A stretch of DNA of 64,000 nucleotides from Acetobacter papayae JCM 25143 (lineage in GTDB: Bacteria; Pseudomonadota; Alphaproteobacteria; Acetobacterales; Acetobacteraceae), in assembly GCF_000613285.1 (NCBI RefSeq), contig NZ_BAIN01000001.1, positions 1 through 64,000 on the forward strand, in the 5' to 3' direction. Both the position numbers and the translations under genes were made by a program. Positions 1,139 through 53,933 of the stretch are shown piece by piece (the first letter of the stretch is position 1; each line of letters begins with the position of its first letter). Under the pieces are notes generated by a model that saw only the letters and a program-made list of their open reading frames with translations, was not told where the DNA came from and made no database searches.

Positions 1139-4100
1139 ATGACGGTACAGATAGGCAGCCCGCACACGATCGCCACTATCTGGGGGGTGCCCGAAGGATA
1201 TGATGCATTGCTGCTGGCCCGCCGCGCGCGTGAGCATGCGGGGCCGGTGCTGCATATTGCCCGGAGCGATGCCAGCATGGCGCGGCTGGCCGACATGCTG
1301 GGCTTTGTCGCCACGGATATCGAGGTGCTGCGTTTCCCCGCATGGGACTGCCTGCCTATGACCGGGTTTCTCCCAACCCTGCGATTGTAGCCGAGCGTGT
1401 CGCGACCCTCTCCCGCCTGCTGGAGCCCGCCCGTGGCCCGCGTCTGGTGCTGACAACCGTCAATGCCGCCGTGCAGCGCGTAGCACCGCGCAAGACATTT
1501 GAGGGGCAGTCCCTCAGTATTCGTGAGGGCGAGAGCCTCGATCAGACATTCCTGATCGATCTGCTGATCGCCAATGGCTACACCCGTACGGATACGGTGA
1601 TGGAAGCGGGCGAGTTCTCTACTCGCGGCGGTATTTTCGACCTTTATCCGGCAGGGGCTGCCGAACCGCTCCGGCTCGACCTGTTTGGTGACGAGGTGGA
1701 GAACATCCGTGCCTTCGATCCCGGCACCCAGCGCTCGACCGACCGGCGTGAAGCTGGTGCTGTGCCCGGTATCGGAATTTTCGCTTGATGCGGAAAAAAT
1801 CTCGCGGTTCAGAACCGGCTGGCGCGATGCCTTTGGCCCTGGCGCTGCGGCAGACCCGATTTACGAACATGTTTCGGATGGCAGGCGCTATCCGGGGCTT
1901 GAGCACTGGCTGCCCCTTTTTCACGATCATCTGGAAACTCTGTTCGACTACCTGCCGGGTGTTGCGGTCTCGCTCGAACAGCAGGTGGATGAAGGCCTGA
2001 GCGCTAGGCTGGACATGATAGAGGATCACTATCAGGCCCGCAGGCAACCGGCCCGCGAGGGCGAAACCCCGTATCGCCCGCTCTTGCCGCACCTGCTCTA
2101 TCTCGACCGCAAGGGGTGGGATGCCGCCATTGCGCGTCTGCCCGTAGTGGCGTTCAGCCCTATGCCCAGCCTGAAGGGGCCGTGGGGGTGGATGTGGGCG
2201 GACGTTTTGGCAAGATGTACGCCAAGATCGTGCCCGGCGCACAGCGCGAACAGGTCTTTACCCTGCTGGGAGAAGCCGCGCGTGAATGGGCGCAGGTGGG
2301 GCGGCGTACTTTTGTGGCCGCATGGACACGCGGCTCACGCGAGCGCATTGCCGTTCTGCTGCGTGAACACGGACTGGCCACGGAAACCTACGAGAGCTGG
2401 GAGCAGGCCCGCAAGGCCAAGCCCGGCCCGGTGGGGCTTGTGGCGTTTGAGCTGGAACGTGGCTTTGTGGGCGATGATCTGGCGTTTGTGTCCGAGCAGG
2501 ACCTGCTGGGTGAGCGCATAGGGCGGCCACCGCGTCGTCGCCGCCGGGCGGATGAACTGATTGCCGAAGCCAGCGAGCTTTCCGCCGGTGATCTGGTGGT
2601 GCATCAGGATTACGGCATAGGCCGGTATGACGGGCTTGAAACGGTTAGCGTTGGCGTGGCCCCGCATGATTGCCTGCGCCTGCTGTATGATGGCGGGGAA
2701 AAGCTGTACCTGCCGGTAGAAAACATCGAACTGCTTAGCCGCTTTGGCTCTGATCAGGCCGGGGTGGCGCTGGACAAGCTGGGCGGTGTCGCGTGGCAGA
2801 ACCGCAAGGCGCAGATGAAGCGGCGCATCCGCGATATGGCGGGCGAGCTTATTCGCACTGCCGCCGCGCGTGCCCTGCTGGTGGCCCCGGAATTTGCCCC
2901 GCCCGAAGGTATGTGGGACGAATTCTGCGCGCGTTTCCCGTTTGTGGAAACCGATGACCAGTCCCGCGCCATTGCCGATGTGCTGGACGATATGGGGTCG
3001 GGCAGACCCATGGACCGGCTGGTCTGTGGTGATGTCGGGTTCGGTAAGACCGAGGTTGCCCTGCGCGCGGCGTTTGTCGCGGCCATGTCTGGCGGGCAGG
3101 TGGCGGTTGTCGTGCCCACCACGCTGCTGGCGCGCCAGCATTATCGCACCTTTGCTACCCGGTTTGAAGGCTTTCCCATCAAGGTGGCCCAGCTTTCGCG
3201 CATGGTTACGGGCAAGGATGCAACGGAGGTGCGTAAAGGTCTGGCCGATGGCAGCATCAATGTCGTGATCGGCACCCATGCGTTGCTGGCCAAAACGGTT
3301 CAGTTCGCCTCGCTGGAACTGCTCATTATCGACGAGGAGCAGCATTTTGGCGTGGCGCACAAGGAAAAGCTCAAGGCCCTGCGCGAAGGCGTGCATGTGC
3401 TGACCCTCTCTGCCACACCGCTGCCGCGCACGCTCCAGCTTTCCCTTTCCGGCGTGCGGGAAATGAGCCTGATCGCCACCCCGCCCACCGACAGGTTGGC
3501 GGTGCGCACGTTTATCATGCCGTTTGACAGTGTGGTGATCCGCGAGGCCATCCAGCGTGAGCGCTTCAGGGGCGGCCAGATTTTCTGTGTTGCACCGCGT
3601 GTGGAAGACCTTGACCGTATGGCTGAACGGTTGGCCACTATTGTGCCCGATGCCCGTCTGGTGCAGGCCCATGGCCGCCTGACGCCCACCGAGCTTGAAC
3701 GGGTCATGACCGAGTTTTCGGATGGCAAATACGACATTCTGCTCTCCACCAATATTGTGGAAAGCGGGCTGGACATGCCTGCGGTCAACACGCTGATCAT
3801 TCACCGGGCAGACATGTTCGGGCTGGGGCAGCTCTACCAGTTGCGCGGGCGTGTGGGGCGCGGCAAGCAGCGTGGCTACGCCTATCTGACATGGCCGCAG
3901 ACTCATGCGCTGGCGGAATCGGCGCAAAAGCGGCTTGAGGTCATGCAGACACTCGATACGCTGGGCGCAGGCTTTACACTCGCCTCGCACGATCTGGACC
4001 TGCGTGGTGCGGGTAATCTGCTGGGTGATCAGCAGTCCGGCCATGTGCGTGAGGTGGGGATAGAGCTATACCAGCAGATGCTGGAAGATGCCGTGGCCGA

Positions 4101-4601
4101 CCTGCGTGCCGAGCAGGGCCGCCGCAAGCCCGAGGATCGCGAATGGACGCCCGGTATTGTCATGGGCCTGCCGGTGCTGATTCCCGACAGCTATGTGCCG
4201 GACCTGCCCGTGCGGCTTGGATTGTACCGCCGTATCAGTGGTCTTTCTTCCGATGCCGAGACGGAAGCGATGGAGGCCGAACTGATCGACCGTTTTGGTG
4301 CGTTGCCGGAGGAAGTCAAAAACCTGCTGGATGTTGTTGATCTTAAAAGACTATGCAGCAGTCCGGCGTGGAAAAAGTGGATGCCGGGCCAAAAGGTATG
4401 GTGCTTCAGTTCCGCAATAACAGCTTTCGCGATCCGGCGGGGTTGGTGCAGTGGATGGCAGGCTGGAAAGATGGTGTGATGCGCCTGCGCCCCGACCACA
4501 AGCTGGCTGTGGTGCGTGAACTCACCAACGTCCAGCGCGTGGGGCTGGCCCGTAAGGTGCTGGGTGGTCTTGCGAAAATACGCGAAAAGGCCCTTGCCTG
4601 A
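1139..4601 (+). CDS. mfd: Transcription-repair coupling factor Mfd (four frame breaks)
   Basis: Mfd removes stalled RNA polymerase and recruits UvrA at lesions. The parts together give about 1,150 residues, the normal size. Visible in order are the UvrB-like N-terminus (EGYDALLLARRAREH, FPAWDCLP), the RNA polymerase-interacting domain (GDLVVHQDYGIGRYDGLE), Walker A GDVGFGKTE, a DEEQ box, QLRGRVGRG, and the C-terminal regulatory domain. The frame changes near 1357, 1738-1746, 2160 and 4352, and in each case the Mfd protein resumes immediately in another frame. Three look like one-base deletions; the second fits one extra base, a 4-bp ACCG duplication, or a two-base loss. I infer sequence error, not decay. 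A hairpin terminator follows. Confidence 0.93.
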
Positions 4602-8155: not shown

Positions 8156-9166
8156 TCAGGCCCCGTGAGCAAGAAAAATCGCGGTGTCCAGTATCTGCTG
8201 TTCAAGGGGAGCTGGCTCAAGAGCACGGCGTGCAAGGCGAGCATGCCAGAGTGTCGCATCGCCCACATATCGGTCATCTGGCTGGCTTGGGTCCAGTGCG
8301 GGCCGCTCTATGGGGTGGGCAGCCTCTCCCAGTATCTGCGCGACAAGGCTGGCCAGAGCGCCGACTTCGACAACCCGTTCGCCCGCAGTTTCAAAAACCG
8401 GCGGCTGAAGGTGGGGGAAGAGCAGCATATCCCCAAAGCAGATATCCAGCAGGTCGCGCACATGGATATAGGAGCGATAGACCTTTTTACGGGCGTTAAG
8501 CCGTATCGGGCGGCCGGCCTGCATGTCCAGAATGACACAGGCCAGAACGTAGCTTGTAACCTTGTTGATAAAAGGCCCCGCCAAGTTGAACAGGCGCGGG
8601 CAGGTAAAAGGTACGTCCAGTGCCGCGCACAGGGCGGTAAAATGGGCCTCGTCATCCCGTTTCATGGTGCCGTAGCTGTCGGAGCTTGCGCCGGTGGAGG
8701 GCTGCGTGGCGGCGCCAGACGAGGGCATTAAAAACCCTTCGGGGCGCAACCGCTCAAGGGTCTGCTCGACTTGCAGAGATATGGCACGGTTGGTTGCCAC
8801 GAATGCCTCTGGCGAAAGGGCCGAGGCTTTTTCTTTGGTCAGATAGGCAAAATGCGCCACGAGCGTGGGAGCCACAGGGGCTGTGGCCATGGCATCAAGG
8901 GGGAGGACCGGCAGCGTGCGGCCTGATGAAAGGGTCAGTTCCCCCGCCGTCGAGCCATAGACACTTACACGCCCGGCTGTTTGCTCTGCCAGTGTTTCAT
9001 CCAGCAGTTCCAGACAGGCCCGGCCGATCCACCCGCGTCCCCCTGTTACGAGAACGCGCAACTCCGGCCTTGCTGTAAGGGCGGCCTTGATATCGGCCGA
9101 AAAAGCAAAGGGCCGCGGCTTTGTGCCGTATGGGGCAGGGCCGGGTGGTGCGGAGGGAGCCTGCAT
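8156..9166 (-). CDS. NAD(P)-dependent epimerase/dehydratase (SDR), possible YerF-like CDP-sugar reductase
   Basis: A 336-residue extended SDR. The Rossmann motif TGGRGWIG is at residues 41-48 and the catalytic SYGTMK, with Tyr165 and Lys169, at 164-169, so it should be an active nucleotide-sugar oxidoreductase or epimerase. Its ATG shares a base with the TAA of the TPP enzyme upstream (TAATG), implying translational coupling. In yersiniose synthesis, YerE (TPP) and YerF (reductase) form such a pair acting on CDP-4-keto-3,6-dideoxyglucose, and rfbF/G/H lie close by. The YerF-like role is inference; a paratose/abequose-type 4-reductase is the main alternative. Confidence 0.8.
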   Translation of the reverse strand: MQAPSAPPGPAPYGTKPRPFAFSADIKAALTARPELRVLVTGGRGWIGRACLELLDETLAEQTAGRVSVYGSTAGELTLSSGRTLPVLPLDAMATAPVAPTLVAHFAYLTKEKASALSPEAFVATNRAISLQVEQTLERLRPEGFLMPSSGAATQPSTGASSDSYGTMKRDDEAHFTALCAALDVPFTCPRLFNLAGPFINKVTSYVLACVILDMQAGRPIRLNARKKVYRSYIHVRDLLDICFGDMLLFPHLQPPVFETAGERVVEVGALASLVAQILGEAAHPIERPALDPSQPDDRYVGDATLWHARLARRALEPAPLEQQILDTAIFLAHGA

Positions 9167-10974
9167 TACGGTTCGAGCATGTTCGATGCCAGTTCCTCAC
9201 GCGACAGGAAGGGGGCGAGGTCTTCAAAGCTGGAGGAGACAATAGTGCCGTCTTCAAGCTGGCGGCTGGCCAGTTTGGGAGCAAAAGGCTGGTTCTCATC
9301 CAGAATGATCTCGCACACCGCAGGGCCGGGTATTGCCAGAAAATCCTTGATGGAAGCGTTCATGCCCTCATGGCTTTCGATACGCCGGTAAGGCAGGCGG
9401 AAGCCTTTTGTCAGGGCTTCAAAGTCAGGCAGAACAACGCCCGAGCTGGGGCCTGCGCCGATTTCCTCTCCATTGAAAAAATTATGCTGGGTTTGAAAAA
9501 TCGAGACATAGCCAGCATTATTCAGCAGGAATATCTTGATAGGCATTCTGTTGCTGGCAATGGTTTGGAGTTCTTGCAGGTTCATCATGATCGAACCATC
9601 GCCCGCCAGACAGATGACTTCCCGCCCGGAGGCCTCATAAGCGCCAATGGCGGCAGGCAGGTCATATCCCATGCTGGCACAGCCCGAATTGGACCACATG
9701 CGCTGCCCCTGCCGGAAAATGGCAGCCTGAAAACCGACAACCGCTGCCGTGGCATTGGCGGCAATGACAATCTGGTTCTCAGGGAGTGATTCAAACAGCT
9801 CTTTTACAAAACAATAGGGATTAACCTTATCATTTTCATAATATTCAGGCAGCACGACAGGGTATTTCGCCACACGCTGCCTGCACCATTCCAGCCAGTC
9901 CGTATGTTCGGTGCTGGGGGTTGGCCATGGCCATGCCGCGAGGGCAGGCAGCAGAGCGCGCAGGTCTGCCAGAATGGGGGTGTCGGGTTTGATGGAGGGC
10001 TTGCGCAGTTCCATCTCATCGATATCGACCCAGATTTTCTTGGCGTTGGGTGCGAAAGAGCCCCAGTTATAGCTGATCTGGCGGATATTCAGCCTGCACC
10101 CCAGAACAACCAGCAGATCTGCGTTCTGGACGGTGAAGTTGCCGCCGCGATCCCCGATAGTGGAGGGGCGACCGCAATAGAGCGGGTGGTCATTGGTGAG
10201 AATGTCTTGTGCGTTCCAGCCGCCGACAACCGGAATGCCCGCTTTTTCAGCAAAACTCAGGAACGCATCATACTGGCCCGAAAGGCGAACGCCGGTTCCT
10301 GCCAGAATAACAGGCCGCCGGGCCTGCCCGATCTGTGTCGCAATGGTGCTGACCGCCTGGGCAATATCTGTTTCCTCCCATGGCGTCTCCTGTTCGGAGG
10401 GGTCATAACCGGGCAGCGTGTCGGGGTCTATGTAAGCCCCCTGCACATCGAGCGGAATATCGAGCCATGTGGGGCCGGGGCGGCCAGAGCGGGCCAGATG
10501 GAAGGCTTTTTCCAGATGGTAGCGGATTGTCTGCGGGTCGGTCACCATGGCGCTGTATTTGGTCACCGAGCGGATCATGTATTCGATATCGATTTCCTGA
10601 TCGCCAAACTGCCGCAGCGGCAGGCCGGTATGGCGGACGGTTGTCTCGCGCTTGACCTGACCGCTCAACACCACCATGCCGACTGAATCGACATAGGCAC
10701 CATAAACGCCAGTAATGGCGTTGGTGCCACCCGGCCCGGTTGTGACGTTAACCAGCGCAATGTCGTTGGCATAACGGAAGTAGGATTCTGCAGCCATGGT
10801 GCAGGCCTGTTCATGGTGGTTGAACACGCAGGTCAGGTCCGGGTGCATACCCAGCGAGTGGTTGAGGTGCATGGCACCACCCCCCGTAACCATGAAAACA
10901 TGGCGTACGCCGGCTTCGGATACTTTCTGGGCAACCCAGTCGGAGAGTTTTACCTTGGCCATTGTTCTATCCAT
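9166..10974 (-). CDS. Thiamine diphosphate-binding enzyme, acetolactate-synthase-like (YerE-like candidate)
   Basis: About 602 residues with all three domains of the acetolactate synthase/pyruvate oxidase family. The N-terminal domain has FNHHEQACTMAAESY with the catalytic Glu (about residue 55) and NVTTGPGGTNAITG; the C-terminal ThDP/Mg motif is LAGDGSIMMNLQELQTI ending in LLNN. The frame also opens at a TTG (10989), and 10962 is another possible ATG. A true IlvB would normally have an ilvH partner, whereas here the partner is a coupled SDR (TAATG). With rfbF/G/H nearby this fits YerE, which adds a two-carbon unit from pyruvate to CDP-4-keto-3,6-dideoxyglucose. Substrate assignment is inference. 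Confidence 0.85.
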   Translation of the reverse strand: MDRTMAKVKLSDWVAQKVSEAGVRHVFMVTGGGAMHLNHSLGMHPDLTCVFNHHEQACTMAAESYFRYANDIALVNVTTGPGGTNAITGVYGAYVDSVGMVVLSGQVKRETTVRHTGLPLRQFGDQEIDIEYMIRSVTKYSAMVTDPQTIRYHLEKAFHLARSGRPGPTWLDIPLDVQGAYIDPDTLPGYDPSEQETPWEETDIAQAVSTIATQIGQARRPVILAGTGVRLSGQYDAFLSFAEKAGIPVVGGWNAQDILTNDHPLYCGRPSTIGDRGGNFTVQNADLLVVLGCRLNIRQISYNWGSFAPNAKKIWVDIDEMELRKPSIKPDTPILADLRALLPALAAWPWPTPSTEHTDWLEWCRQRVAKYPVVLPEYYENDKVNPYCFVKELFESLPENQIVIAANATAAVVGFQAAIFRQGQRMWSNSGCASMGYDLPAAIGAYEASGREVICLAGDGSIMMNLQELQTIASNRMPIKIFLLNNAGYVSIFQTQHNFFNGEEIGAGPSSGVVLPDFEALTKGFRLPYRRIESHEGMNASIKDFLAIPGPAVCEIILDENQPFAPKLASRQLEDGTIVSSSFEDLAPFLSREELASNMLEP

Positions 10975-11383
10975 GTAAGAATTCTTCAAAATGTCACTCT
11001 GGGCCGTGTCATGCCTGTCAGTGCGAGCAATCGGGCGTCTTGCCCGCTGTTATGTGCCCTCACATCTGACCATGACAGCCTGTCTGTACCCGCCATTGGC
11101 AGCGCGATTGTTAACATTTCGCCAGAACACTGTGAAGGGTGCGGCACAGGCCGTATTGGGGGAGGCAAAAACCGGCGGAGGTTCATGCCGGGCGTGGACA
11201 TTTTGTGGCGCATATCCGCCACAGAAGGCCGGTGCGTCGGTTGCGTTTTTAGCAATTTACGTGCATTCTGGGGGCTCAAGTCTGTAGTCGTTTTTTGCAT
11301 GGTTTTAGTGACATGGCATGGCAATTTCTGGATTGCATTTGCGGTCGCGGCCAAATCTCTCTTTCCCGTTTGGAGCGCCACAT
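10975..11383. other. Intergenic region between the divergent TPP enzyme and neuB-like genes
   Basis: About 400 bp with no gene I can support. Open frames exist on both strands but show no recognisable family or translation signals. It must hold the promoters of two divergent units. The clear element is the inverted repeat at 11204-11223. The part from about 11230 to 11350 is more AT-rich, with several T runs, and is the likely promoter area for the gene at 11384, but I cannot choose specific -35/-10 boxes. Confidence 0.5.
11204..11223. promoter_or_regulatory. Inverted repeat, operator-like
   Basis: TGTGGCG (11204-11210), a 6-nt spacer CATATC, then CGCCACA (11217-11223) form a perfect 7-bp dyad in the shared upstream region of two divergent sugar genes. 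Its placement suggests a repressor or activator site; no T tract follows, so a terminator is less likely. No regulator can be named. Confidence 0.35.
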
Positions 11384-12477
11384 ATGGCAGGGCAGAAATC
11401 TCGCCAGTATTTTGAAGACCTCTTTGTGCTTGAAATGGCCAATAATCATTGGGGCAGCATCGAGCGCGGACTGAAAATTATTCATGACCATGCAGCCATT
11501 GCCCGTAAAAACAATGTCAAGGCAGCAATAAAGCTCCAGTTCCGGGATGTGGATGAATTCATTCATCCGAATTTCAAAGGCAATACAGACCTTCGGTATG
11601 TAAAAAAGACAGAAGATACCCGTCTGGATCGTGAGGGTTTTTCCGTCATGGTTGAGGCTATCAAGGCGGCTGGCTGCATTCCTATGGCCACCCCTTTTGA
11701 CGAGGCTCGGTAGACCTGTGTGTCGCCTTTGATTTTCCGCTGATAAAAATCGCCAGTTCAGACATGAATGACTGGTCGCTTCTGGAAAAAGTCGCGTCCA
11801 CCGGCCGCCCGGTGATTGTCTCCACCGGTGGTGGTTCGGAAAGTGCGATTGATGATCTGGTCGCGTTTTTCGAAAAGCGGCAGGTGCCGCTGGCCATCAA
11901 TCACTGCGTTTCGCTCTATCCTTCGGAAGATAGCGAACTGGAACTTAACCAGATCGATTATCTGCGTAGCCGCTACCCTGATCTGGTCATTGGTTTCTCC
12001 ACGCACGAATACCATGACTGGCATTCGTCCATGCTGATTTCCTACGCCAAGGGCGCGCGGATGTGGGAACGCCATGTCGATATCGACTATCAGGGCGTGC
12101 CGGTTTCTTCCTACTGCTCGCTGCCTGAGCAGTGCGATGAGTGGTTTCAGGCTTTCCACAAGGCGCGGGAAATGTGCGGGGGAACAGAGGCAACGCGCAG
12201 GAATATTTCCGAACGCGAAGTCCATTACCTTGATGCGCTGGTACGCGGCATTTACGCACGCCGGAAGCTGGAGGCGGGGTATGTGTTCTCTGCCGATACC
12301 TTCGCGCATGATTTCTATCTGGCGGTTCCGCTGCGCAAGGGGCAGCTATCCAGCCGTGAAATGATCGAAGGCGAGGTGCTGACCCAGACACTCGACCCCG
12401 ATCAGGCTCTGACGGTCGAACATGTGGAAAAGGTCGGCGGTCAGAAAAAAGCGTTTTTGCTCAATCGCGGCCTGTAA
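11384..12477 (+). CDS. N-acetylneuraminate synthase family protein (NeuB-like; one frame break)
   Basis: A NeuB-like aldolase of about 364 residues that would condense phosphoenolpyruvate with a sugar to make a nonulosonic acid or related 2-keto acid. Visible are LEMANNHWGSIERGL near the N-terminus, KLQFRDVDEF (the KFQ site), FPLIKIASSDMNDWSLLEK, PVIVSTGGG, NHCVSLYP, IGFSTHEYHDW, and a C-terminal SAF domain (LRKGQLSSREMIEGEVL). The frame breaks near 11706; restoring one base in GAGGC(N)TCGGTAGAC gives FDEASVDLCVAFDFPL. No neuA or neuC-type gene lies beside it, so the product is unknown. ATG at 11384 is the only start that fits the family N-terminus. Confidence 0.82.
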
Positions 12478-12569: not shown

Positions 12570-13918
12570 TTAGTGCGGCTTTTTGCAGAAATTGTGGAAC
12601 TCTTCGGCCATATAGGCAATGTGTGCCTCTGAAAGGCCGGGGAAGACCCCCACCCAGAAGGTGGCGTTCATAACCTGATCCGCGTTGTCCAGTGTGCCGA
12701 CAACGCGGTGGGGGCGTTCACGCATATAAGGCTGGCGCAGCAGGTTGCCACCAAACAGGAAGCGGGTCGCGATCAGGCATTCGTTCAGGTGCTTGACCAG
12801 CGCATCACGCGTGAAGGGGGCGCCGGGCCGAACTGTCAGCGGAAACCCGAACCATGACGGGTTTGAATGCGGCGTGGCCTGCGGAAGGATAAGGAATTCC
12901 TCAAGCGGTTTGAGCAGCGACAGGAGCTGTTCGAAATTGCGCCGACGAGCCGCGATGAAGTTTTCAAGATGATCGAACTGCGCCAGCCCGACGGCAGCCT
13001 GCATATCGGTAATCTTGAGGTTATAGCCAATGCTCGAATAGGTATATTTGTGGTCGTAGCCAAAGGGTAGGGTGCCAAGCTGCTGCTCGAAGCGCCGCTT
13101 GCAGCTATTGTCCCGACCCGGATCGCACCAGCAGTCGCGCCCCCAGTCCCGCATGGATTCAAGAACACGCTTGAGCTTTGAATCGTTGGTGAAAACTGCG
13201 CCGCCTTCGCCCATGGTCATATGGTGGGCCGGGTAGAAGCTGAGCGTGCCGATATCGCCAAACGAGCCGACAATCTTGTCCCTGTATGTGGCGCCCAGAG
13301 CGTCGCAGGTATCTTCCACCACAAAAAGATCGTGCTTTCTGGCAAGCTCCATAACCGTATCGAGGTCAAATGGATTGCCCAGCGTATGGGCCACGGCAAT
13401 AGCGCGCGTGCGCGGCGTAATGGCAGCCTCGATCAGGTCTGCGCGGATATTATAGGTGGGGATGTCCACATCCACGAAAACCGGTAGCAGGTTGTTCTGC
13501 AGAATGGGGTTTACGGTTGTCGGAAAACCGGCGGCACAGGTAATGACCTCATCGCCCGGTTGCAGGGCGCGTTTGCCCAGTAGGGGGTTTGCCAACGTGC
13601 TGACAGCCAGCAGGTTGGCGGATGAGCCAGAGTTGCAGGTCAGTGCATGCCGCACCCCCATGAACTGGCGCAGCCGCTGTTCAAAGGCGCTGTTGAAACG
13701 TCCTGTGGTCAGCCAGAAATCAAGCGCGCTTTCTACCAGCGAGGTGACATCCGTTGCATCATAGACCTTGCCGGAAACCGGAACAGGGGTTTTGCCGGGC
13801 ACGAATGGGGCTGGGGCGTGGGCAATGGCTGTATATTCGGCAACGAGAGAAAATATCTGTTCTTTAAGGTCTTCAGCGTGCGTGCCTTTTCAGAAGAAGT
13901 ATTTGCAGTGCTTGTCAT
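12570..13918 (-). CDS. rfbH: CDP-4-dehydro-6-deoxyglucose 3-dehydrase (E1, RfbH/DdhC; one frame break)
   Basis: E1 is a PMP- and [2Fe-2S]-dependent enzyme that, with an E3 reductase, removes the 3-hydroxyl of CDP-4-keto-6-deoxyglucose to give 3,6-dideoxy sugars. Two diagnostics are present. The PLP-lysine position is His ([13 protein letters not shown]), as in E1 and unlike normal aminotransferases. The cysteines are spaced C-X57-C-X1-C-X7-C, from DTCDALG to [11 protein letters not shown], exactly the E1 iron-sulfur pattern. The intact frame starts only at 13802; the family N-terminus ([15 protein letters not shown], then [16 protein letters not shown]) continues in another frame up to ATG 13918, with a one-base loss near 13871. 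Full length is about 449 residues. No E3 gene is visible in the window. Confidence 0.93.
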
Positions 13919-14110: not shown

Positions 14111-15045
14111 ATGTTTGCGCATATGACCCCAAAGGCATTGGTAATGCACGAGACTGGACAGCAGATGAGCCGTGAAAAGTTTTCCCCCACAAAGGAGAGG
14201 GTCGCGCGGGCCTGTGTCTGCTGTGGGGGGCAGGATCTTGAACGCTCTCCGGCTGTTCTCATGCCGTTTATTGCGCATCGTGTTTTTGACTGGCTGCCGG
14301 TCACGATCGATGAAAGCTGGGGGCTTTCCACGATCAGGAGCGGGCATGCTACTCGCTCTGTAATTCCCTGTATTGTCGTGATTGTGGATTTTTGTTTCTG
14401 GATATGCGGTTTTCCGATGTTGAGCTGCAAAGGCTTTATACGGATTATCGCGGTAAGGCCTATACTGAACTCAGGGAGCATTATGAACCCGGCTATGCGG
14501 CCCGGAATGATGTTCTGAACACGGTGATAGACTATATCCCCGATATAGAGAATTTTCTCGAAAAATACCTGACTTTTCCAATAAATATTCTCGATTGGGG
14601 TGGAGATACGGGAAAAAATACACCTTTCAGGAACAGGTGTGCCGCGTTTGATATTTACGATATCAGTGGCAACCAACCTGTGTCAGGGGCTGGTATTGTT
14701 TCAAGAAACGATCTGAATCTGAAGCATTATGATCTGATCGTGTGCAGTAATGTGCTCGAACATGTGCCGTATCCATCCGATCTGCTCAATGATATTGCGC
14801 AAACCATGCGTGAGCAGTCCGTTTTATATGTGGAAGTGCCGTTTGAAGCCATTATGAGGCAGGAAGAGGTTGCCCTGCCGCAGGGTAAAAGGCACTGGCA
14901 CGAGCATATCAATTTTTATTCCGAAAAATCCCTTCGCTGCCTTTTTGATAAAGTTGGCCTTGATATTTTGGAACTGAGGCCTTTCCGGGCCATAACCGGC
15001 GGCGCGCCTTTCCATATGTTTCAGATTGCGTGTAAGCTGAAATGA
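14111..15045 (+). CDS. SAM-dependent methyltransferase with N-terminal zinc-ribbon (one frame break)
   Basis: About 311 residues. The N-terminus carries two cysteine pairs, CVCCGG near residue 36 and [11 protein letters not shown] near 85, resembling the putative zinc-binding domain found in sugar C-methyltransferases and related enzymes. A class I methyltransferase core follows: [26 protein letters not shown] and VEVPFEAI. The frame changes near 14335-14345; the second cysteine pair reads in the downstream frame together with the core. Its stop overlaps an ATG of rfbF (ATGA, 15042-15045), implying coupling with CDP-sugar synthesis. Likely substrate is a nucleotide sugar or glycan residue. 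Local base composition is lower in GC than the flanks. Confidence 0.75.
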
Positions 15046-15851
15046 AGGCCGCAGGTCATCTCGAGCGTGGAGCGTCAGTCGGGTTTATGCAAGCAGTAAT
15101 ACTGGCCGGTGGGCTGGGCACCAGAATTTCCGAGGAATCCTTTATTCGCCCCAAACCGATGATCGAGATCGGGGGGCGGCCTATACTCTGGCATATCATG
15201 AAGATTTACTCTGCTTATGGTATCCATGATTTTATCATATGCTGTGGCTATAAAGGGTATATGATCAAAGAGTATTTTGCGAATTATTTTCTGCATATGT
15301 CTGACGTTACAATAGACATAAGAAACAATACTGTGGAAGTGCATACGCAAAAATCCGAGCCATGGCGCATTACCCTGATTGATACCGGTCAAGAAACAAT
15401 GACAGGTGGCCGCCTCAAGCGTGTTGCTCCTTACCTCAAGGGCGATTTCTGCATGACGTATGGGGATGGTGTCAGCACTGTGGACATCGGCAAGTTGGTC
15501 GCTTTTCACAAACAGCACGGCAGGCAGGCAACCATGACCGCCGTGCAGCCCCCCGGCCGTTTTGGTTCCATTCAGTTCGATAAGGCAACTGTTACGTCGT
15601 TTCTGGAAAAACCCGATGGTGATGGTCATTGGGTCAATGGTGGCTTTTTTGTCCTCTCGCCTGATGTGATTGAACGCATTGAAGGCGATGCCACTGTCTG
15701 GGAAGGCAAGCCACTCGAAAGCCTCGCCAGAGATCGGGAGCTTGAGGCGTATTTCCACCATGGTTTCTGGCAGCCCATGGATACGCAGCGCGATAAAACC
15801 TACCTTGAGGAACTCTGGTCTACTGATCAGGCGCCTTGGAAAATCTGGTAA
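15042..15851 (+). CDS. rfbF: Glucose-1-phosphate cytidylyltransferase (RfbF/DdhA)
   Basis: Makes CDP-glucose from CTP and glucose 1-phosphate, the first committed step to CDP-3,6-dideoxyhexoses. The sugar-nucleotidyltransferase signature [15 protein letters not shown] and [19 protein letters not shown] is followed by [12 protein letters not shown] and [17 protein letters not shown], which are characteristic of RfbF. The ATG at 15042 overlaps the upstream stop, but the family N-terminus matches the internal ATG at 15087 (MQAVILAGG), giving about 254 residues; either could be used. rfbG begins in its stop codon (TAATG). The frame is intact. Confidence 0.95.
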
Positions 15852-16942
15852 TGGTCAGGCCGAATTTCTGGAGCGGCAAGCGGGTATTCCTGACTGGGCA
15901 TACCGGTTTCAAGGGAAGCTGGCTTTCGCTCTGGCTGCGCGAACTCGAGGCCGAGGTAACAGGCTACGCACGAAGGCCTCCAACGGATGTAAACCTGTTT
16001 GAAAGTGCCGATGTGGCACAGGGTATGACATCCGTTATAGGCGAAATCTGCGATGCCGGGTTTCTGGCCGCCACATTGGCTGAGGCGCGACCGGATATTG
16101 TCATCCACATGGCGGCTCAGCCGCTGGTGCGGTATTCGTATGACAACCCGGTGGAAACCTATTCGACCAACGTGATGGGGCTGGTGGCGCTCCTTGAGGC
16201 GGTGCGCCAGACCGACAGCGTGCGTGCGGTGGTGAATGTTACCTCCGACAAATGCTACGAAAACCGCGAGTGGCTCTGGGGCTACCGCGAAACCGACCCC
16301 ATGGGTGGTTTCGATCCCTATTCTTCTAGCAAGGGTTGTGCCGAACTGGTTACGGCGGCCTATACGCGCTCCTTTTTCAATCCCGAACGCTATGCCGAGC
16401 ATGGCGTGGCGCTTGCCAGCGCTCGCGCTGGGAATGTGATCGGGGGTGGAGACTGGGCCTGCGACAGGCTTATTCCCGATATTATGCGGGCACTGGCCGC
16501 GCATGAACCGGTGAAGGTGCGCAACCCGCAGGCCATTCGTCCATGGCAGCATGTTCTGGAACCCCTGCGCGGGTATCTGATGCTGGCTGAACACCTGTAT
16601 GAAAACGGTGCGGGCTTTGCGGGAGGGTGGAATTTCGGTCCTTCGGATACAGATGTCAAACCCGTTCAGTGGATCGTTGAAAACCTGACCCGGCAATGGG
16701 GGGAGGGTGCTGCATGGATATGCGAGCAGGGGCAGGGTGTGCATGAGGCAACCCATCTGAAACTCGACTGCTCAAAAGCGCAGGCCCTGCTGGGCTGGAC
16801 ACCGGTCTGGGGGCTGGAGGCCGCTCTGGACAGGATTGTCAGCTGGCATCAGGCCCATGCGCGTGGAGAGTCCATGCGGGCGTATACCCTTGCGCAAATC
16901 CGGCAATACCAATCCGCAGTCAGGGAAAAGAGCGGCTGCTAG
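15851..16942 (+). CDS. rfbG: CDP-glucose 4,6-dehydratase (RfbG/DdhB)
   Basis: Converts CDP-glucose to CDP-4-keto-6-deoxyglucose, the substrate of RfbH. It is an extended SDR of 363 residues: the NAD motif TGHTGFKG is near residue 15, VNVTSDKCYENREW is the characteristic dehydratase segment, and YSSSKGCAE holds the Tyr and Lys of the YxxxK pair. The start ATG at 15851 overlaps the rfbF stop (TAATG), which argues against the upstream in-frame TTG at 15836. The gene is intact and follows rfbF directly, as in Salmonella and Yersinia dideoxyhexose clusters. Confidence 0.95.
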   Translation: MVRPNFWSGKRVFLTGHTGFKGSWLSLWLRELEAEVTGYARRPPTDVNLFESADVAQGMTSVIGEICDAGFLAATLAEARPDIVIHMAAQPLVRYSYDNPVETYSTNVMGLVALLEAVRQTDSVRAVVNVTSDKCYENREWLWGYRETDPMGGFDPYSSSKGCAELVTAAYTRSFFNPERYAEHGVALASARAGNVIGGGDWACDRLIPDIMRALAAHEPVKVRNPQAIRPWQHVLEPLRGYLMLAEHLYENGAGFAGGWNFGPSDTDVKPVQWIVENLTRQWGEGAAWICEQGQGVHEATHLKLDCSKAQALLGWTPVWGLEAALDRIVSWHQAHARGESMRAYTLAQIRQYQSAVREKSGC

Positions 16943-25383: not shown

Positions 25384-26267
25384 GTGTCCAAACCCAAGCC
25401 TTTACGTAAAGCAGTTCTGCCGGTTGCAGGGCTGGGAACGCGCTTTCTGCCGGCCACCAAGCCATGCCCAAGGAAATGCTGCCGGTTGTAGACAAGCCCC
25501 TTATCCAGTACGCGATCGATGAAGCACGTGCTGCGGGTATCGAGGAATTCTGTCTGATCACGGGGCGCGGCAAAGATTCCCTGATTGATTATTTCGATAT
25601 TGCCTACGAGCTTGAAACCACGCTGAAAGAACGCAACAAGCTGGATTGTCTGGAGGCGCTTGGCCCCAGCTCCATTCAGGCCGGTTCGCTCATGGCAGTG
25701 CGCCAGCAGGAGCCGCTTGGTCTGGGACACGCCATCTGGTGCGCACGCGCATTCATTGGTGACGACCCGTTTGCCATTCTGCTGCCGGATGATCTGGTTC
25801 AGTCTGAAAAAGGCTGCCTCAAGCAGTTGGCCGAAGCGTATAATGAAACGGGCGGCAGTGTTGTGGCAGTGTCGGAAGTGCCGCGTGAGCACACGAACCG
25901 CTACGGTATTCTCGATGTTGGCAAGGATGACGGGCATCTGGTCGAGGTGCGCGGGCTGGTTGAAAAACCCAAGCCCGAGGACGCTCCTTCCAATCTGTCC
26001 ATTATTGGCCGTTACGTGCTGACCCCGCATGTCATGCGGCATCTGGCCAAGCTGGAGCGCGGCGCGGGTGGTGAAGTGCAGTTGACCGACGCCATGGCCA
26101 AAACCATTGGCGAGGTACCATTCCACGGACTGCGCTACGAAGGTACGCGTTACGACTGCGGCAACAAGCTTGGCTTCCTTGAAGCCCAGATTGCCTTTGC
26201 TCTGCAGCGCCCGGAACTGGCTGAGGGCGTGCGCGCCTTCCTGCCCAAGTATGAGGGGCAGAAATAA
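25384..26267 (+). CDS. galU: UTP--glucose-1-phosphate uridylyltransferase GalU (one frame break)
   Basis: Makes UDP-glucose for exopolysaccharide, LPS and trehalose. About 294 residues. The N-terminus (KAVLPVAGLGTRFLPATK) lies in one frame from GTG 25384, and the rest (MPKEMLPVVDKPLIQYAIDEA onward) in another; one G restored near 25461 gives the universal PATKAMPKEMLP. Further signatures are ILLPDDLVQ, GLVEKPKPEDAPS and the C-terminal YDCGNKLGFLEA. The next gene starts in its stop codon (TAATG at 26267), so the two form an operon. Confidence 0.95.
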
Positions 26268-27675
26268 TGACGTTTTCTCACAACTTTGACGCCACCAGCC
26301 TGCGTGAATACGATATCCGCGGGATTGTCGGTAAAACCCTGAGCGCTGAGGATGCCTTCGCTATCGGGCGTACATTCGGCAGCATGGTGCGCCGTAATGG
26401 TGGACGCACGCTTGTAGTCGGATACGACGGCCGCCTGTCTTCCCCCATGCTGGAGGAAGCCCTGGTGCAGGGTGCGGTGGAATGCGGGCTTGAAGTGACC
26501 CGTGTGGGCCGCGGCCCGACTCCCATGCTGTATTACGCCTCGGCCACGCTTGAGGCCGATGGCGCGATCATGGTGACGGGCAGCCATAATCCGCCGGATT
26601 ACAACGGCTTCAAGATGATGCTGGCGGGTAAGCCCTTCTTTGGCGCCCAGATCAAGGAACTGGGCGAGCTTTCCGCGCAGGGCAATGTTGTCGCGCGTGA
26701 GGATGGCAGCGTGCGCGAAGCCGATGTGCGCGACGAATATGTTGCCCGCCTGGTCAAGGACTACGTGGGCGGTTCGCGCAAGCTGAAGATTGTCTGGGAT
26801 AACGGCAACAGTTCCGCTGGCGAGATTCTGGAAAAGCTGGTGGCGGCCCTGCCGGGCGAGCATATCGTGCTCAATGCTGCTATTGATGGCACGTTCCCGG
26901 CTCATCACCCCGACCCGACGGTTGCAAGAATCTTCAGCAGCTTATCAGCGTCGTGCGTGATAATGGTGCCGATGTGGGTATTGCCTTCGATGGCGATGCC
27001 GACCGGATCGGTCTGGTGGACAACAAGGGCGAAATCCTGTGGGGCGACCAGACGCTGATTCTGCTGGCGCGTGATGTGCTCAAGACCCATCCGGGTGCGA
27101 CCATCATTGCAGACGTAAAGGCCAGTCAGGTTCTGTTCGACGAGGTTGCGCGCGCGGGCGGCAAGCCGCTGATGTGGCGCACCGGCCATTCGCTCATCAA
27201 GTCCAAGATGGCCGAAACCGGCTCGCCGCTGGCGGGTGAAATGTCGGGCCATATCTTCTTTGCCGATAAATGGTACGGCTTTGACGATGCCCTTTATGGT
27301 GGGGTGCGCGCACTGGATATTCTGGCGCGTATGGATGAGCCTCTTTCGGTTTTCCGCGAGTCTCTGCCCAAGACCATTTCCACCCCGGAAGTGCGTTTTG
27401 ACTGCGATGATCACCGTAAATTCAAGGTGATTGAGGAAGTGGCCGAGCGCCTGCGTAAGGCCGGTGCCGATGTTTCCGAAATCGATGGCGTTCGGGTGAA
27501 CACGTCTGATGGCTGGTGGCTGCTGCGTGCCTCCAACACGCAGGCCGTGCTGGTGGCGCGGGCAGAAGGGAGCGACGAGGCTGGTCTGGAACGGCTCAAA
27601 GCGGCTCTGGTGGTGCAGCTTGAAGAGTCCGGCCTGTCCAGCCCGGATTTTTCGGGTGACAACGCCGGGCACTAA
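26267..27675 (+). CDS. Phosphomannomutase/phosphoglucomutase (one frame break)
   Basis: An alpha-D-phosphohexomutase of about 469 residues that interconverts hexose 1- and 6-phosphates, feeding galU and GDP-mannose synthesis. Domain 1 has [10 protein letters not shown] and the phosphoserine loop [13 protein letters not shown]; domain 3 the Mg loop FDGDADRIG; domain 3-4 GEMSGHIFF (substrate loop); domain 4 WLLRASNTQ (phosphate loop). The frame breaks near 26925; one base restored (GTTGC(C)AAGAAT) gives DPTVAKNLQQL. It is the second gene of the galU operon and is followed by a hairpin. PMM and PGM cannot be separated by eye; dual specificity is common. Confidence 0.92.
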
Positions 27676-51423: not shown

Positions 51424-52396
51424 GGCCGGGCATGGGGGAGACAGGCACTACCATTACAGGCCCACGCCTTGCCTCACTGGCATTGCAGGGGCATGAGGCC
51501 GGGCTTGACGTATTCCGTCAGGCGCTGGAGCGGGGCTGTATGCCCCATGCGTGGCTGATTACCGGCCCGCCCGGTATTGGCAAGGCCACGTTTGCCTTTG
51601 CGCTGGGGCGTCTGCTGCTGGGAGCCACGCAGGCGGACAGCCCGGCAGGCCGGCGCGTTTCTGCTGCCACCCATGCCGACCTATTGGTGGTTGAGCGCGG
51701 TTTTGATGAAAAGCGCCAGCGCTATCGCTCCGAGATCGTTGCGGACGATGTGCGGCCCATCAATGCGTTTTTGCGCCGTACCGCCGCGGAAGGTGGTTGG
51801 CGCGTTGTTATTGTCGATGGCGCAGAATGGATGAACCGCAGTGCGGCCAATGCGCTACTGAAAATACTCGAAGAGCCTCCGCCTGCAACCATCCTGCTTC
51901 TGACAAGCTCAGCCCCCGGACGTCTGTTGCCGACTATTCGCAGCCGGTGCCGCAGGCTTGCGCTCGGAGGGCTTGATGCCCGCACCATGGGGGCGGTACT
52001 GCGCACTATAGCGCCTGAGGCCGATCCGGCTGAGCTGGAGCGCGTGACTGCACTGGCCCACGGGGCCCCGGCCGCGCACTTGCCCTGCTGGCCGATACGC
52101 AGGGTGAAATCGCCCGTTGTGTCGAGCGCGTGTGTGCAGGTTTCAGTGCATTGGAAGGTTATGAAGTCGCGGAAATGGTTCTGCGCAAGGAATATGGTTT
52201 CGATCTGTTTTTCAGCCTGTTATCAGATCGGCTTCAGGCGGTGGCCAGACAGGCCGCGCTGAGTGGAAGCGCTCATGGTCTTGCCTGTGCGCGTGCATGG
52301 GAGACCCTTGTACGCCTATATGGTGAAACAGAGCGTTTCAACCTGGATAAACAGGAAGCCCTACTCGAAGCCATGACGATTGCGAGCCAAGCATGA
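51420..52396 (+). CDS. holB: DNA polymerase III subunit delta' (one frame break)
   Basis: The clamp-loader delta' subunit, about 325 residues. Seen are HAWLITGPPGIGKATFAFAL (P-loop), WRVVIVDGAEWMNRSAANAL and LLKILEEPPPATILLLTSSA (the ALLKxLEEPP signature), then RLLPTIRSRCR. The frame breaks near 52070; one base restored gives AHGAPGRALALLADTQG and the C-terminal helical collar ending at 52396. The start GTG 51420 overlaps the tmk TGA; ATG 51432 is an alternative. It also overlaps metG by 4 bp. Confidence 0.93.
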
Positions 52397-53933
52397 CCCG
52401 TCGTTTTTACGTTACTACTCCCATCTATTATGTAAACGGTGCGCCGCATATCGGGCACGCCTATACATCTATCGCGGCGGATGTCATGGCGCGGTTCCAC
52501 CGTCTGGCCGGTCATGATGTGTTTTTTCTGACCGGCACCGACGAGCATGGTCAGAAGGTGGAGCAGGCAGCACAGGCCGCCGGTGTTGAGCCGCAGGCCT
52601 TTGTTGACCGTATTGCTGCTGATTTCCGCGATATGGCTGATTCCATGGCCATTTCGTATGACGATTTTATCCGCACGACCGAGCCGCGCCACGTGACCGG
52701 AGCGCAGGCCCTGTGGGAACGTGTTGCGCAGAACGATGCCATTTATCTTGGCGCGTATGAAGGTTGGTACGCCCTGCGGGATGAATGTTTCTACGGTGAG
52801 GACGAACTGACCACCGGGCCAGATGGTCAGAAGCTGGCACCCACGGGTGCTCCGGTGGAGTGGGTCAAGGAGCCCTCTTACTTCTTCCGTCTTTCCGCGT
52901 TTCAGGACCGGCTGCTGGAACTATATGAGCAGTGCCCGGAATTTCTGGGGCCACATGGTGCACGCAACGAGATTATCAGCTTTGTCCGTCAGGGGCTGCG
53001 TGACCTGTCAATCAGCCGCACGAGCTTTAAATGGGGTATTCCCGTGCCGGGGGATGAGGCCCATGTCATGTATGTGTGGTTTGATGCGCTGGCCAATTAC
53101 CTGAGCGCGCTGGGCTTTCCTGACATGGATGGTGCACGGGCGGCCTACTGGCCAGCGGACCTGCATCTTGTCGGCAAGGACATTGCACGCTTTCACGCTG
53201 TTTACTGGCCTGCGTTCCTTATGGCCGCGGGCATTGATGTGCCCAGCCGGATTTTCGCCAATGGCTGGTGGACGGTCGAAGGCCAGAAAATGAGCAAGTC
53301 GATCGGCAATGTTATTGACCCGCGCGATCTCGTGCGTGAGTTCGGCCTTGATGCGGTGCGTTTCTTCCTTTTGCGTGAAGTGCCGTTTGGCGGGGATAGC
53401 GATCTGTCGCGCAAGGCGCTGATTACGCGCAATAATGTCGAGCTGGCCAATGATCTGGGCAACCTTGCCCAGCGCACGCTCTCACTGGTTGCGAAAAACT
53501 GCGAGGCGATGATCCTGCGCGGGGTGAGCCAACGGTTGAGGATAAGCAGCTTCTCGCACAGGTGGCGGTGCTGCCCCAGCTTATGGCCACGCAACTGGAA
53601 CGCAGTGCCCTGACGGATGCGCTGGAGGATGTCTGGAAGGTTATCCGCGCCTGCAATGCGTATATCGACCATCAGGCACCCTGGGCGTTGCGCAAGACTG
53701 ACACGGTGCGCATGGCCAGCGTCCTGCGGGTTCTGCTGGATGCGCTGCGGGGTATTGCCACGGTTCTTCAGCCTTTCATGCCTCAGACCATGGAGCGTAT
53801 GCTCGACCAGCTTGCTGTGCAGCCCGACGAGCGTAGCCTTGCCGCACTTGAGGTGCCTCTGCCTGCAGGGCGCGCGCTTCCTGCACCACAGGGACTGTTC
53901 CCCCGCTATGTCGAGCCGGAAGCAGCGCCATGA
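52393..53933 (+). CDS. metG: Methionyl-tRNA synthetase (one frame break)
   Basis: Class I synthetase, about 513 residues, lacking a C-terminal tRNA-binding extension (a normal short form). The HIGH motif is in NGAPHIGHAYTSIAADV, then FLTGTDEHGQKVEQAA; the catalytic lysines are in VEGQKMSKSIGNVIDPRD (KMSKS). Near 53515 one base is missing (GATCC(C)TGCGCGG), which restores EAMIPARGEPTVEDKQLL and a helical anticodon-binding domain to the stop at 53933. The start follows the holB ATGA overlap. It is essential, so the break is not a real disruption. Confidence 0.96.

Follow-up and report, generated by a model that had tools for sequence, protein, structure and literature searches.

The window analysed here, a stretch of 64,000 nucleotides, forms the opening 64 kb of a contig of 175 kb; the assembly (3.04 Mb, 177 contigs) is 86.98% complete. 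It holds an RfbH gene and the following features around it:

12570 to 13802, minus strand: RfbH, E1-type CDP-4-keto-6-deoxyglucose 3-dehydrase, GTG start, 410 residues (NF011936, 692.9 bits, cut-off 423)
13803 to 13889, minus strand: in-frame extension above the GTG that fits the N-terminal RfbH profile and contains no ATG, GTG or TTG; the open frame ends at 13889
15042 to 15851, plus strand: RfbF, glucose-1-phosphate cytidylyltransferase (TIGR02623, 459.7 bits, cut-off 300.25)
15836 to 16942, plus strand: RfbG, CDP-glucose 4,6-dehydratase (TIGR02622, 493.6 bits, cut-off 278.45)
9166 to 10989, minus strand: ThDP-dependent YerE-like carboligase (best PDB match 8rph, 408 bits)
8156 to 9166, minus strand: NAD-dependent epimerase/dehydratase-family protein, candidate branch ketoreductase by putative role (PF01370, 68.6 bits)
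11318 to 11713, plus strand: front piece of a broken NeuB-like synthase, resembling by eye the start of the intact relative at locus L054 (family F8)
11764 to 12477, plus strand: rear piece of the same NeuB-like synthase in another frame (PF03102, 74.2 bits, profile positions 101 to 237 of 241)

The preliminary description of this DNA had set the RfbH gene apart from ordinary DegT-type aminotransferases, and the profile scores agree with that separation. The protein passes the RfbH model, and all aminotransferase models stay below their cut-offs: the NCBIfam models for PseC, the LegC family, WecE, ArnB and DesI gave at most 200.6 bits (the PseC score, cut-off 423.5) against cut-offs of at least 375. 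Among the PDB matches listed, the solved E1 chains 3bcx and 3bb8 reached 578.4 and 574.3 bits and the other chains no more than 185.6 bits; the ColD chain scored 180.5 bits. E1 is the CDP-6-deoxy-L-threo-D-glycero-4-hexulose 3-dehydrase (DdhC/AscC/RfbH) of Y. pseudotuberculosis, and its chain 3bcx is identical to the window protein at 242 of 403 ungapped positions (60.0%). The residues of interest are:

13305 to 13307, minus strand: Cys166, first predicted [2Fe-2S] ligand, equivalent to E1 Cys193
13302 to 13304, minus strand: Asp167, equivalent to E1 Asp194
13233 to 13235, minus strand: Tyr190, equivalent to E1 Tyr217
13224 to 13226, minus strand: His193, at the position of the PLP lysine, equivalent to E1 His220
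13131 to 13133, minus strand: Cys224, equivalent to E1 Cys251
13125 to 13127, minus strand: Cys226, equivalent to E1 Cys253
13101 to 13103, minus strand: Cys234, equivalent to E1 Cys261

The alignment with E1 that had been suggested as a check matched all seven of these E1 residues, the four cysteines and the histidine among them. The cysteine spacing claimed earlier, C-X57-C-X1-C-X7-C, is exact in the window protein (Cys166, Cys224, Cys226 and Cys234) and identical in E1. The 12-residue segment said to carry histidine in place of the PLP lysine begins at residue 190, and its first histidine is His193, aligned to E1 His220. With eight cysteines in 410 residues, simple arithmetic gives a chance of about 340 x (8/410)^4 = 5e-5 for the four-cysteine pattern. 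We take E1 Asp194 and Tyr217, the counterparts of Asp167 and Tyr190, to have catalytic roles. Arg403 of E1 presumably has a role as well, and the window protein has glutamine there; this difference was given no weight, as the position varies in a six-row alignment. An ordinary aminotransferase of the DegT/PseC type was rejected on the strength of His193, which leaves no PLP-binding lysine, and of the model scores. Judged by its sequence, the gene is an ordinary and well-preserved member of the E1/RfbH family. The reaction proposed for it, 3-deoxygenation and not amination, is supported by this family membership, and with RfbF and RfbG close by, its putative function is best read as C-3 deoxygenation of CDP-4-keto-6-deoxyglucose.

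We then considered the motif across the family in a set of 86 RfbH proteins: that of the window, those of 80 collection loci (the best 80 by score of at least 589 relatives), and those at the loci of five further carriers. Two search peptides were used for the collection, and one of them, [VI]ED[CT]CDAL, includes the first cysteine, so that this residue was partly selected for in the sample; the other three cysteines and the histidine are free of selection by the peptides. The four-cysteine spacing and the histidine are present in all 86 proteins (80 of them the best 80 of at least 589). The motif is a textbook hallmark of the RfbH family and nothing special to the window gene. The residue preceding the first cysteine is cysteine in 72 proteins, threonine in four and another residue in 10 (n = 86, including the best 80 of at least 589); the window protein has threonine. 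RfbH is accessory in the genus, with scores over the cut-off in four of 49 same-genus genomes, its own genome included. The RfbH proteins of two loci from this genus, L041 and L042 (genomes G046 and G023), are only 55% identical to that of the window and lie distant from it in the tree. Since they are so unlike it, RfbH appears either to have been acquired repeatedly in the genus or to have diverged strongly. No YerE-like match was found in the RfbH cluster of L041 or L042.

RfbF, RfbG and RfbH correspond, by their predicted functions, to the pathway that leads through CDP-glucose to 3,6-dideoxy sugars. The YerE-like carboligase points to a further step. The structure it matches best, 8rph, is described as JanthE, a YerE-like enzyme. 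In the accessible part of PMC12247030, YerE is reported to add a pyruvate-derived branch to CDP-3,6-dideoxy-4-keto-glucose, the related ErwE to prefer longer, functionalised donors such as 4-hydroxy-2-oxo acids, and more than 200 YerE-like enzymes to have been found by cluster similarity in an in silico study. The window module resembles the C-4 branching pathways of yersiniose A and erwiniose in having a YerE-like ThDP enzyme, whose acceptor in those pathways is a 3-deoxygenated CDP-keto sugar (PMC12247030, available in part), and it differs from them in its NeuB-like gene. The front piece of that gene gave no family match on its own. Across the 80 collection loci (the best 80 of at least 589), a YerE-like protein above 200 bits is present in 43 and a NeuB-like protein above 45 bits in 21. 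Among the best 80 of at least 589, a YerE-like protein above 400 bits accompanies 19 of the 21 NeuB-bearing loci (Fisher p = 7e-9, a value overstated because the loci are related); at a NeuB threshold of 100 bits, 17 of 19 loci have the YerE-like partner. On the basis of NeuB chemistry, we propose that the NeuB-like enzyme may supply the branch donor. In the literature, available in part, neither the NeuB link nor the E3 gap described below was found stated within the reach of the search, which left the in silico survey of YerE-like enzymes outside.

The cluster of E1 receives its electrons from E3, a reductase with a [2Fe-2S] cluster of its own, as described in the accessible part of PMC8987622. 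Three E3 candidates reached no NCBIfam model at its cut-off, and E3 was therefore defined by its architecture (an N-terminal C-X4-C-X2-C with flavin and NAD domains) and its position beside rfbF, rfbG or rfbH. A profile was built from eight E3 candidates. Neither the pattern nor the profile found an E3 in the window or in the 10 to 20 kb around RfbH in each of the five further carriers. An E3 lies in the flank (up to 10 kb per side) of nine of the 80 collection loci (the best 80 of at least 589), with that of L114 cut by a contig end. In 39 of these 80 loci (the best 80 of at least 589) the flank falls short of 10 kb on at least one side; of the 41 with about 10 kb on either side, six have an E3. 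It is absent from the flank of 71 of the 80 loci (the best 80 of at least 589), or of 77 of 86 counting all.

Other redox proteins near RfbH were searched for as well. A [2Fe-2S] ferredoxin profile run over 11569 ORFs of at least 60 residues in the 86 loci recovered eight E3 proteins and no ORF in the E3-less loci. In the E3-less loci, a 4Fe-4S pattern matched only two adjoining ORFs of L090, and a lax E3 search gave a single match with an E value of 0.014. The longest non-overlapping ORFs of at least 110 residues from the 86 loci, the window being trimmed to about 2.5 to 23.5 kb, were clustered into neighbour families, which were judged by eye with Pfam scans of seven proteins. A redox partner hidden near RfbH was rejected on this survey: no redox family was recognised in the 45 largest families apart from E3 itself, in eight loci. 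Of the 86 loci (the best 80 of at least 589 included), the 77 that have no E3 in the flank all retain the four cysteine ligands, which argues that the putative cluster still works in E3-less RfbH.

An eight-row E3 alignment was also searched against whole genomes, namely the window's own, those of the five further carriers and those of 75 collection carriers out of 80, with cut-offs of E <= 1e-20 in one search and E <= 1e-60 in the other. Four control genomes, which had contributed E3 proteins to this alignment, scored 485 to 535 bits. The best match in the window's own assembly (86.98% complete) reached 86 bits over model positions 104 to 329, without the N-terminal ferredoxin part. At E <= 1e-20 nothing matched in genomes G005, G023, G127 and G133, and in G046 only the flavin/NAD part of E3 did. 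A full E1/E3 two-component system was thus not found in the window or in its own assembly. The 75 carrier genomes (of the best 80 of at least 589) divide into seven with 450 to 535 bits (L089 at 449.8), 15 with a best score of about 304 to 370 bits, and 53 with less than 300 bits or no match at the cut-offs; many genomes are MAGs, so that absence from any single one is weak evidence. The group at about 304 to 370 bits looks like a separate, mostly beta/gamma-proteobacterial paralogue, since three control genomes contain both kinds; service to E1 is nevertheless conceivable for it. Away from the RfbH locus, genomes G168, G169 and G170 (loci L086, L099 and L121) each encode a second full-length E3-like protein, scoring about 356 bits. 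It may act outside sugar metabolism, and some of its relatives carry the name of a glucoseen reductase.

A quick maximum-likelihood tree was computed for 87 RfbH proteins, the 86 of the set (the best 80 of at least 589 included) and Yersinia E1. All nine loci linked to E3 group with Yersinia E1 in a single supported set of 27 (SH-aLRT 95), and the E3 label requires at least three changes on the tree. The window RfbH belongs to a separate supported set of 23 (SH-aLRT 98), to judge by their titles mostly from alpha-proteobacteria, in which none of the 23 loci is E3-linked in flanks of up to 10 kb per side. All 23 genomes of this clade, several of them MAGs, were searched whole, and none reached 300 bits; the best were L054 at 226.8 and L053 at 215.8.

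As a whole, these results are best explained, with a probability of about 85%, by E1/RfbH-type 3-deoxygenation supplied with general ferredoxin or flavodoxin electrons and followed by YerE-like C-4 branching and reduction. By analogy with E1 biochemistry, PMP would condense with the 4-keto sugar to a Schiff base, His193 would accept a proton from PMP, and the C-3 hydroxyl would depart to leave CDP-3,4-glucoseen. Two electrons passing through the predicted [2Fe-2S] cluster on Cys166, Cys224, Cys226 and Cys234 would reduce this intermediate, and the product would be CDP-4-keto-3,6-dideoxyglucose. The YerE-like carboligase would then probably add a branch at C-4 of the keto sugar, and reduction would yield a branched sugar of the cell surface. 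As no E3 was found and SpnQ offers a precedent, the window system probably borrows its electrons from general ferredoxins or flavodoxins, in line with the proposal for SpnQ; this related PMP- and [2Fe-2S]-dependent dehydrase is stated in the accessible part of PMC8987622 to use, possibly, ferredoxin/flavodoxin reductase pairs and not E3. Encoded in the window's own genome are one short [2Fe-2S] ferredoxin (L004), three reductases whose ferredoxin domain is C-terminal, and another two NAD_binding_1 proteins, on contigs C174 and C163. One of these reductases or NAD_binding_1 proteins could be a dedicated, un-E3-like partner of RfbH.

A classical E1/E3 pair would be restored if E3 lay in the missing 13% of the assembly or if a divergent reductase were encoded elsewhere, which we regard as unlikely. 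An assembly in 177 contigs and only 87% complete could lack the gene, and some carriers, mostly beta/gamma-proteobacteria, do hold a full-length E3-like protein of about 297 to 370 bits with no E3 near RfbH. However, two of the four genomes with no match at E <= 1e-20 (G023 and G127) are listed as 100% complete, the genome with the flavin/NAD part only (G046) is 99% complete, and the window's clade has no genome at 300 bits, several of the 23 being MAGs. The failure to find E3 in the 86.98% complete assembly would also suit an aminotransferase, or a redox-neutral route like that of ColD in which PMP is regenerated by glutamate and the intermediate is hydrolysed, the Fe-S cluster not serving electron transfer. 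ColD (GDP-4-keto-6-deoxymannose 3-dehydrase, 2gms) performs such chemistry with a histidine and no cluster, and SpnQ has both the histidine and the cluster yet transaminates when the reductase is absent, according to the accessible part of PMC8987622; the histidine swap alone therefore does not confer E1 chemistry, and the behaviour of SpnQ leaves amination some small room on sequence grounds. Under conditions similar to those used for SpnQ, E1 and ColD are reported in that part of the same source to have no transaminase activity (PMC8987622). All 86 proteins (the best 80 of at least 589 included) retain the four cysteine ligands, whether E3 is near or not, and the window protein resembles E1 (578.4 bits) and not ColD (180.5 bits). 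Both the aminotransferase and the redox-neutral route are quite improbable on this evidence.

The 5' end of RfbH raises the question of a decaying pseudogene, in which a frame break would have removed the proper start. No ATG, GTG or TTG is present in the RfbH frame above the GTG at 13802, up to 13889, and the ATG at 13918 is in a different frame, whereas a start codon lies 25 to 75 codons upstream of a reference motif in 71 of the 73 RfbH proteins, out of 86 (the best 80 of at least 589 included), in which that motif could be located. The exceptions are the window protein, whose nearest GTG is 9 codons upstream, and L083, with a TTG at 24 codons, just under the bound. The whole-genome RfbH profile match extends to 13880, from profile position 5; the GTG form lacks about 30 N-terminal residues, as its match begins at position 32 instead of about 5, and retains all the residues discussed. 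The catalytic part had been described as intact despite the break, and this holds, with a match spanning profile positions 32 to 438 of 440. Housekeeping ORFs of the window are likewise broken or partial:

26267 to 27675: pgmG, split into two frames (profile positions 1 to 225 and 229 to 459 of 460)
1685 to 4479: mfd, in two frames
52393 to 53613: metG, partial profile coverage
27836 to 28417: moaA, partial profile coverage
20107 to 21564: cobT, partial profile coverage
36807 to 37874: ispG, partial profile coverage
24216 to 24905: lipB, partial profile coverage

A two-frame split is demonstrated for PgmG and Mfd only. The damage suggests low-quality sequence in the window, and as these nearby genes are likewise split or partial, the RfbH frame break is most likely a sequence error. 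With the ligands and the matched active-site residues also intact, a decaying gene is very improbable.

Read as an E1-type dehydrase, the window protein shares with Yersinia E1 the cysteine spacing, the histidine, Asp194, Tyr217 and the proximity of RfbF and RfbG. It differs in that no E3 gene was found for it, in the YerE-like carboligase and the broken NeuB-like gene beside it, and in the loss of its N-terminal start from the sequence. It is like SpnQ (dTDP-4-keto-2,6-dideoxyglucose 3-dehydrase, spinosyn) as a PMP and [2Fe-2S] dehydrase, a likeness taken from the description in the accessible part of PMC8987622; SpnQ has another sugar nucleotide and another pathway. ColD is also a DegT-fold dehydrase with histidine in place of lysine, and it differs in having, according to the accessible part of PMC8987622, no Fe-S cluster.

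The motif is confirmed and ordinary, and it is the E3-less setting that is worth specialist attention. It is electron supply that would matter here: in its published description E1 takes electrons from E3 (PMC8987622, available in part), yet 71 of 80 loci (the best 80 of at least 589) are E3-less in the flank. In a trial that combined E1 and E3 of Yersinia and Salmonella, no combined activity was obtained, and the Fe-S clusters and the electron path from E3 to E1 were suspected, as reported in the accessible part of PMC7851689. E3-independent E1 enzymes, if real, could aid the making of 3,6-dideoxy sugars and would account for the reducing power of branched-sugar pathways. A broader reading, which we put forward tentatively and hold to be somewhat doubtful, is that most RfbH proteins outside the beta/gamma-proteobacterial branch are E3-free and run on the general ferredoxin/flavodoxin pool, E3 being a later specialisation, and that C-4 branching in the window module is fed by the NeuB-like enzyme. 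From phosphoenolpyruvate and an aldehyde the NeuB-like synthase would form a hydroxylated 2-oxo acid, which the YerE-like enzyme would then couple to the E1-derived sugar. Split transketolase-like genes, named by eye, also lie beside RfbH at L044 (5082 to 6868) and in the nine-locus family F11; they perhaps represent another sugar-branching route.
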